Shown: one piece after another, positions 18,860 through 20,448 of the stretch | How positions within the stretch are numbered: position 1 is the first letter of the stretch | Layout: each line of letters opens with the position of its first letter | Program-made: the position numbers and the translations under genes | Source of the DNA: a virus | Strand: one strand, 5' to 3' | Length of the DNA stretch: 20,448 bases | IMG/VR virus record: IMGVR_UViG_3300030419_005151 | Location: 1-20,448 of that record | The notes under the pieces: generated by a model | What the model saw: only the letters and a program-made list of their open reading frames with translations | Told to the model about the DNA's origin: nothing | The model's database searches: none

Positions 18860-20448
18860 ATGCCAGTAATCGGAAGCAGTTTAATAACACCACCACAAAC
18901 GGCTCAAGGTCCTAAAGGAAATACAGGTCTTGCTGGGATTACTGGGCCTGCAGGCGATTCTGGTGCGAGGGGTGTTACGGGAACGACTGGCGCAACAGGA
19001 ACTTTTGTTGTTTCTGGTTATCCTTCACCTTCCACCAGAGATTTGATACTCGTTTTATCAGATGGTAGAGAAATTACCATAGAAAATATTGCAGGCCCAA
19101 CTGGTTCGGTAGGATATGCAGACGGACTCACAGGCACTGATGGTGTCAATCCTTATGATATAGTTAAAGCAACAACAGATGGTATCACTTTCTGGTTTAA
19201 AGGATTATCTGCTGAAGGAACACTTCAGGTATATGAAACTAGTGATACGGTAGGAATTAGTGGTGATGTTGGATACCAAAGAGGTGCAACTGCCCCATCT
19301 GTTCAAGGTGGTAGATATGCCTACCTAGAAAGAATGATTGGTGGTGCAAATGCTTTTGCAGGATTTACATATGCCGGTGCAACAGGTTCTGAATTGACTT
19401 CAAGTGAGGCCGGTTTAATGCCGCTTGGTAAAGGGGTTGAATCGACAGCGCCGAGATACTCATACGACCCAGAAGAAATTATTATACCAATTGGTCCTAT
19501 GGAATTAAATAATCCATCGGGTGAAGTAAAATGGTATGGACTCACTGGCAGCGATTATGCTGACAATCCTTGGGGCGATACTGCCGGAAACGGTGTCGGT
19601 ATTCAACTTCCTGTAACAAGAGGAAGTGTGTATGATGTAGAAACACCTATTGGAATTCGTGGATTTACTGGTGATTTTGCATCGAATGAAGTTTTCAGTT
19701 TCACCATGCACCTTAAAGGAAATGATATTTGGGATTGGCCGGATAATGTTTACTTTGATAGCAATGATTTATATTTCTCTTGTGGTTATGATATAATTAA
19801 CTTTTTAACTGATGATGGTGGTGTATCATGGAAAGCAAATGTTGCGGTTCGTGGATATGGTACTAGTGAATGTCAAAGTGTTCATGGTTTAGGTTCTTGT
19901 TGTTATACAGATGAAGAAAATGAATTAAATTGTCGTGACTATATGACAGAATCTGAATGTCACGAACTTGATAGTCCTTTCCCTGATGGGGAACATGGAT
20001 ATTGGGGACCGTTCTCTACTTGTGCAGAAAATTGCGGAATGACCGCAGAAGGTGTTTGTTGCAGTGAAGGTGGTGAATGGGGCAACTTTGGTGGAAGTAC
20101 AAGAATATGTTTGGATGGTGTTGGTGCGACAGAGTGTGATTATTTTGGTGGCACTTTCTGGACACATTATTATTATACAAAAGACGAATGGGGAAGAACA
20201 GTTCCTCTAGAAAATCCTCTTTTGATAGAATGTTTTGGCGAAGAAGAAGAAGAATTAGTAAATGGTATGCTGGGTTCTTGCTGTGTACCGTTTGATGGTG
20301 GCGATGGTGGTGATGGTGGTGATTCAGATTCTGATAGTGATTCAGATTCTGATAGTGATTCAGATTCAGATAGTGATTCTGATAGTGATTCAGATTCTGA
20401 TAGTGATTCAGATTCAGATAGTGATTCTGATAGTGATTCAGATTCAGA
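18860..20448 (+). CDS. Collagen-like tail fibre with Asp-Ser repeat, 3'-partial
   Basis: The frame is open from the ATG at 18860 to the window edge (529 codons plus 2 nt), so the C-terminus is missing. AAGGA at 18844-18848 serves the start. Domains: N-terminal PVIGSS, related to the IHGSS of the two preceding genes; collagen-like tract (residues 17-47); beta-rich region; an adhesin-like domain with YDIINFL (from residue 310) followed by GGVSWKANV, aligned with DIINFF of the gene at 12946; then six-Cys units at residue 345 (GSCC), a second at GVCCSEGGEW, and a third begun at 20273 (GSCCVPF). Where the third unit's next Cys is expected there is a DGG run, then a pure Asp-Ser tract to the edge. 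A third paralogous fibre; the acidic tract would act as an extended, possibly Ca2+-binding, stalk. Confidence 0.85.
   Translation, partial: MPVIGSSLITPPQTAQGPKGNTGLAGITGPAGDSGARGVTGTTGATGTFVVSGYPSPSTRDLILVLSDGREITIENIAGPTGSVGYADGLTGTDGVNPYDIVKATTDGITFWFKGLSAEGTLQVYETSDTVGISGDVGYQRGATAPSVQGGRYAYLERMIGGANAFAGFTYAGATGSELTSSEAGLMPLGKGVESTAPRYSYDPEEIIIPIGPMELNNPSGEVKWYGLTGSDYADNPWGDTAGNGVGIQLPVTRGSVYDVETPIGIRGFTGDFASNEVFSFTMHLKGNDIWDWPDNVYFDSNDLYFSCGYDIINFLTDDGGVSWKANVAVRGYGTSECQSVHGLGSCCYTDEENELNCRDYMTESECHELDSPFPDGEHGYWGPFSTCAENCGMTAEGVCCSEGGEWGNFGGSTRICLDGVGATECDYFGGTFWTHYYYTKDEWGRTVPLENPLLIECFGEEEEELVNGMLGSCCVPFDGGDGGDGGDSDSDSDSDSDSDSDSDSDSDSDSDSDSDSDSDSDSDSDSDS
18908..19000 (+). repeat. Collagen-like Gly-X-Tyr tract (gene at 18860)
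   Basis: Eleven glycines at every third residue (G17 to G47), for example GPKGNTGLAGITGPAG. X-Y composition is more varied (Lys, Asp, Arg) than in the two sister genes. Confidence 0.88.
19892..20320 (+). repeat. Six-Cys mini-domain units (gene at 18860)
   Basis: Two units are complete or nearly so (GSCCYTDEENELNC and GVCC with a 15-residue first loop). A third opens with GSCCVPF at 20273 and leads into DGG repeats and the Asp-Ser tract. C3-C4 spacing is 8 in both complete units. A poly-Glu run (GEEEEEL) sits between units two and three. Confidence 0.75.
20321..20448 (+). repeat. Asp-Ser dipeptide repeat, runs off the window
   Basis: 128 nt encode 21 uninterrupted Asp-Ser pairs and then leave the window. 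Aspartate is always GAT; serine rotates among TCA, TCT and AGT. The DNA has higher-order units: A (gattcagattctgatagt), B (A with TCA for TCT) and C (gattctgatagt), ordered A-A-B-C-A-B-C-B. This gives a 48-nt A-B-C period repeated twice. Confidence 0.95.

Follow-up and report, generated by a model that had tools for sequence, protein, structure and literature searches.

The window, the whole stretch of 20,448 bp analyzed here, is the entire IMG/VR record IMGVR_UViG_3300030419_005151, and the Asp-Ser tract at its 3' edge therefore meets a true contig end. The gene that carries the tract (Table 1) lies downstream of gp25, gp6, and tail fiber genes. With its gp25- and gp6-type baseplate wedge genes, tail fiber genes, and three genes for collagen-like or Cys-rich products, the window genome is, judging from this gene content, that of a T4-like myovirus. 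In a relative, genes of the head-tail connector and tail-sheath-stabilizer families (gp13/14/15 type) come downstream of the same Cys-rich genes, so that these fall into the T4 interval bounded by gp6 and gp13-15; we infer a tail location for the tract protein. A separate, very Cys-rich open frame of 559 aa (positions 3 to 1682, 5' end cut by the window) is found upstream of the baseplate genes. It contains repeated C-x-x-x-x-D-C...CC motifs and belongs to no Pfam or PHROG family.

Table 1. Features of the tract gene (positions in the window)
Feature	Coordinates	Strand	Remarks
Gene for a collagen-like, Cys-rich, putative tail protein	18860..20448	+	Runs off the contig at its 3' end; 529 codons in the window, against 1149 aa in the ortholog
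Collagen-like Gly-X-Y stretch near the N terminus	18905..19000	+	Pfam PF01391, residues 16-47, below cut-off; PHROG match from residue 12
First CC-C-C-C-C unit (GSCC...CAENC)	19892..20035	+	Cys positions; conserved in orthologs
Second CC unit (GVCC...IEC), closing the conserved N-terminal block	20051..20233	+	Cys positions; orthologs
Start of third CC motif (GSCCVPF)	20273..20293	+	Ortholog equivalent is GSCCIPF
(Asp-Gly-Gly)x3	20294..20320	+	9-nt DNA repeat
(Asp-Ser)x21 tract	20321..20448	+	Built of 18- and 12-nt units; reaches the end of the contig

The tract gene starts with an ATG preceded by AAGGA and stays open to position 20446. Its product shows weak matches to PHROG tail fiber families (PHROG 5073, E value of 9e-9), confined to approximately residues 12 to 98, the collagen-like stretch; the long Cys-rich part falls into no PHROG or Pfam family, and Pfam finds nothing beyond a weak collagen domain in the window protein. 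No match was obtained in tblastn searches with the window protein and its ortholog against 50,697 phage records. Against PDB sequences, the N-terminal alignment gave no match below an E value of 0.02, the two weaker matches covering residues 19 to 50 only. The AlphaFold model of residues 1 to 471 (tract outside), built from an 8-sequence alignment, has a pLDDT of 36. The earlier note had called this product a phage fiber. A tail-fiber or adhesin-like gene is consistent with the collagen-like N terminus, the PHROG matches, and the location between gp6 and the gp13/14/15-type genes; a model of this pLDDT does not confirm the elongated, trimeric, beta-structured fold of such fibers. This Cys-rich, adhesin-like product probably helps the phage to grip its host.

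The Asp-Ser tract and its repeated DNA

Two complete Cys units, both degenerate, precede the tract (CC pairs at residues 347-348 and 400-401). The third CC motif consists of GSCC at 20273-20284, with the CC codons at 20279 and 20282, and VPF at 20285-20293. The 21 Asp-Ser pairs span positions 20321-20446, a copy number that is a lower bound and possibly affected by assembly, and the last letters, GA, reach the window edge. Serine is encoded by TCA, TCT, and AGT codons, arranged in blocks of 18, 18, 18, 12, 18, 18, and 12 nt, followed by an incomplete one. The number of DS pairs did not exceed 3 in any of 5000 shuffles of the window protein, so the tract is not a product of chance; the rest of the window has at most 2 DS pairs in any frame. 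Sequence and open reading frame thus confirm the earlier description of at least 21 pairs that follow DGG repeats and reach the edge, and the 12- and 18-nt in-frame units described there correspond exactly to the Ser-codon blocks.

For positions 20327-20445, Tandem Repeats Finder reports perfect (100%) repetition with a period of 48 nt; an exact 48-nt periodicity up to the contig end was considered and dropped, the longest repeat being 71 nt. An antisense Ser-Glu repeat frame across the tract was likewise dismissed, as the ortholog conserves the sense frame. The exact tract DNA had no match among viral contigs, and a junction search with the pattern D-GG-D-GG-(DS)3 gave none.

The contig stops 128 nt inside the tract, a length close to a common maximum assembler k-mer, and the same is seen in several further viral contigs, which stop inside a DS tract or directly beside it. 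A repeat-caused assembly failure is the likely explanation of the stop, which makes 21 pairs a minimum. The same pattern could mean that the tract as seen is itself an artifact, looped or joined at the repeat. We consider this very improbable, because an independent contig, that of the relative described below, has the same junction, a complete tract, and a continuing frame, although the copy number may still err. A query with the post-tract sequence of this relative, used to look for the missing continuation of the window, matched the relative alone. The suggestion that the tract could change in length without breaking the frame is plausible: in an unrelated phage gene, two copies that agree at each of 1434 aligned bases carry 18 versus 10 in-frame GACTCC (Asp-Ser) pairs (contigs L049 and L124, respectively). 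By analogy, and with the same assembly caveat, this pair shows that in-frame DS length change happens.

Tract and modules in related phages

A gp6 search identified the relative, IMGVR_UViG_3300025133_000257, whose ortholog of the tract protein has 1149 aa and is 83% identical to the window protein over residues 1 to 462. Its junction reads GSCCIPF..GGDGGDGGDSDS.., and the order of elements is GSCCIPFEP-GGDGGDGG, DSDSSDSSDSDSGDSDSSDSDSSDSSDSDSDS, and GGGETHDECP, with 325 residues in all past the tract. The tract is thus internal to a longer Cys-rich protein, which answers for this relative the question, raised in the earlier note, of whether the frame goes on beyond the tract. All Ser codons of the relative's tract are AGT, in a DSS/DS/DSG pattern, as against TCA, TCT, and AGT in the pure DS tract of the window. 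Hence, the place and composition of the tract are conserved while the DNA repeat is different, two genes being a small sample. For these two genes, such a combination would fit selection on the residues together with turnover of the repeat.

The tract had been described as invading a six-Cys unit. A GSCC head followed by the tract is indeed present; however, in the relative the tract is followed by a different Cys-rich module. The residues just after the relative's tract (C-x10-CC...) fall short of the canonical CC-C-C-C-C pattern, and ahead of the next shared block stands a full standard unit, ACCQDPF...ECAGEC, that brings a CC pair of its own. The ortholog in L140 has an unbroken GSCCIPTGSGGYDC unit at the corresponding place. 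We read this arrangement as a CC head, a putative spacer, and an extra Cys-rich module ahead of a complete unit, rather than as one unit cut in two.

Searches with N-terminal alignments yielded 15 loci from approximately 12 distinct phages. The N-terminal block ends near residue 450; the zone that separates it from the following shared block (CCKDGxCIGD) measures approximately 0 aa in five orthologs (L141, L236, L237, L238, and L239), 510 aa in the tract-bearing relative, 685 aa in L234, and 815 aa in L140. A tract at this junction is found in the window and one relative only; the other orthologs found are without it there. The proposed comparison of tract length among related phages thus reveals a zone that varies from approximately 0 to 815 aa, but just one relative that carries the tract at the junction. 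In Cys-rich genes, D/S/G tracts of at least 20 residues are present in the window; the tract-bearing relative and L143 each have three, spread over two genes, with (DS)11 among those of L143. Such tracts also separate Cys-rich modules elsewhere in the tract-bearing relative and in one other. L003 and L004 have shorter D/G-rich tracts. The orthologs are strongly acidic, at -9 to -13 net charges per 100 aa, and hold as many as 359 Cys (in 3078 aa).

Some members of this family show additional features. By eye, the ortholog at L144:3402-8447 (IMGVR_UViG_3300002514_003376) has dockerin-like repeats (ADINHDGVVGITD..., GDVNRDGVVDVAD...) and, in the translation, FG-GAP-like repeats. Stretches resembling von Willebrand A (FLIDTSGSV and FIIDVSGSI) are likewise visible in the giant Cys-rich orthologs at L140:10001-19234 and L234:10001-17845. 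In one phage, two members of the tract gene family stand in tandem as neighboring paralogs (L141:2257-9963 and L141:10001-15214; 2569 and 1738 aa). In the tract-bearing relative, a 1692-aa protein (L135:11107-16182, IMGVR_UViG_3300025133_000257) combines GACC six-Cys units with seven FG-GAP_2 repeats (Pfam E value of 2e-127) and two D/S/G tracts.

A putative spacer and its alternatives

We favor, with a probability of approximately 0.6, the view that the tract serves as a strongly acidic, disordered spacer. It would separate Cys-rich modules of an adhesin-like, tail-associated protein encoded by a T4-like phage, and it would change by in-frame gain and loss of repeats. The tract lies in a zone where whole modules are gained and lost among relatives; its length and pattern would change as units of 6, 12, and 18 nt are duplicated or lost in frame, with the D/S/G composition kept. 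Most likely, such a spacer would hold the distal modules off the collagen-like base and keep them soluble and mobile. Speaking for this view are the ortholog's shared junction and continuing frame, the variable zone, the D/S/G tracts between Cys-rich modules elsewhere, the acidity of the orthologs, the gene neighborhood, the collagen-like N terminus with its weak tail fiber matches, and the DS length difference in the unrelated phage gene. Against it count the restriction of the tract at this junction to the window and one relative, and the fact that a spacer role would be assumed of any acidic sequence of low complexity.

The pure hexamer-based DNA repeat would also be expected of a neutral or slightly harmful, microsatellite-like expansion that has no function and is tolerated since it preserves the frame and hydrophilicity. 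The absence of the tract from most orthologs fits this view, as does the presence of DS runs in phage replication proteins, which are not adhesins. However, two 83%-identical genes keep the junction and the D/S/G composition despite differing codons and unit pattern, and the Ser codons come from two different families; a functionless expansion is therefore unlikely, while ranking highest among the alternatives. We also consider it unlikely, and rank it next, that the tract mainly binds cations, with the divalent ions of seawater (Ca2+ or Mg2+) bridging carboxylates and either stiffening or folding the spacer or linking fibers to host surface polymers. The alternation of acidic residues, the adjoining DGG motifs, and the dockerin-like repeats in one relative speak for this possibility, dockerin repeats in known families being Ca2+ binding. 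On the other hand, the tract has no defined DxDxDG loop, and the spacing of (DSS)n and (DSG)n in relatives differs in register. More doubtful still is that the tract is a length-variable contingency element, in which frequent in-frame Asp-Ser gain and loss would produce a population spread of fiber reaches; if true, varied reach would help the phages adsorb to planctomycetes whose surface layers vary. In sum, the window tract is real and changes rapidly; it is probably a flexible spacer, and not a new kind of system.

Planctomycete proteins and other known systems

The searches that gave a hint of the host used canonical six-Cys units from the relative's neighboring 1692-aa protein, units that follow the pattern GxCC-C-C-C-C with GG(T/I)YxGDxTTC. 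One of the three alignment rows (A3) departs from the natural L135 sequence at one residue of EGTYQGDG, where Gly replaces Glu; the effect of this should be small. These units matched 79 genomic loci, 71 of them labeled Planctomycetota, mostly Phycisphaerae. The tandem GACC proteins of Phycisphaerae share the Cys pattern GACC..C..C..GGTYxGDGTTC..V.C with the relative's units; acidic D/G tracts of at least 10 residues are present in only 2 of the 79 genomic proteins of this type, and a DS run in none. In genome samples, seeds included, unit carriers make up 14 of 101 Phycisphaerae, as against 1 of 100 in the phylum of a Neomarinimicrobiota-labeled seed. Two metagenome-assembled genomes with other labels (L183 and L208, "Cyanobacteria" and "Alphaproteobacteria") grouped with planctomycetes, overlapping the groups of a Phycisphaerales-labeled genome, and their record titles are probably wrong. 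Shared modules of this kind suggest, short of proof, a planctomycete host. The occurrence of canonical Cys units mainly in Phycisphaerae would give a testable host for a phage group without an assigned one, which is perhaps the more useful point.

The earlier note had likened the tract to that of staphylococcal Sdr/Clf adhesins (MSCRAMMs). In these adhesins, SdgA/SdgB O-glycosylate the repeats. Like these, the window protein places an Asp-Ser dipeptide tract, encoded by in-frame repeat DNA, beside other adhesin-like modules; kinship finds no support, as NCBIfam Sdr/Clf models match only the repeat (residues 488 to 528), at 23 to 24 bits against cut-offs of 999 to 2500. The ligand-binding A domain (N2-N3) is absent from the window residues present and from the full-length ortholog, and an LPXTG anchor is absent from the ortholog, whose C terminus is ...GDGSTCCPPE, the C terminus of the window protein being missing. 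Also in contrast to Sdr/Clf, there is no signal peptide, the context is that of a phage tail, and the partners are Cys-rich and collagen-like. SDR domains have 25 to 275 SD repeats and can be glycosylated (PMC8561734), compared with at least 21 DS pairs in the window, and SD-repeat variation has been reported for sdrD (PMC5902956).

The collagen-like phage tail fibers of PHROG 5073, 366, and 1806 resemble the tract protein in their Gly-X-Y stretch near the N terminus and in their tail gene neighborhood, but the match is limited to that stretch. Pure DS tracts are likewise found as linkers in unrelated phage proteins, namely, DnaD-like helicase loaders and an HNH-type family protein, which, unlike the tract protein, are most likely intracellular and not part of the tail. 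In the literature covered, which is incomplete, no paper describes such a tract for the tail protein of a phage. Asp-Ser stalk-like tracts are best known from bacterial surface adhesins; the window and its relative add to these a likely phage tail protein, from a T4-like group that is uncultured and whose giant Cys-rich proteins appear to change both by insertion of whole modules and by in-frame repeat change.
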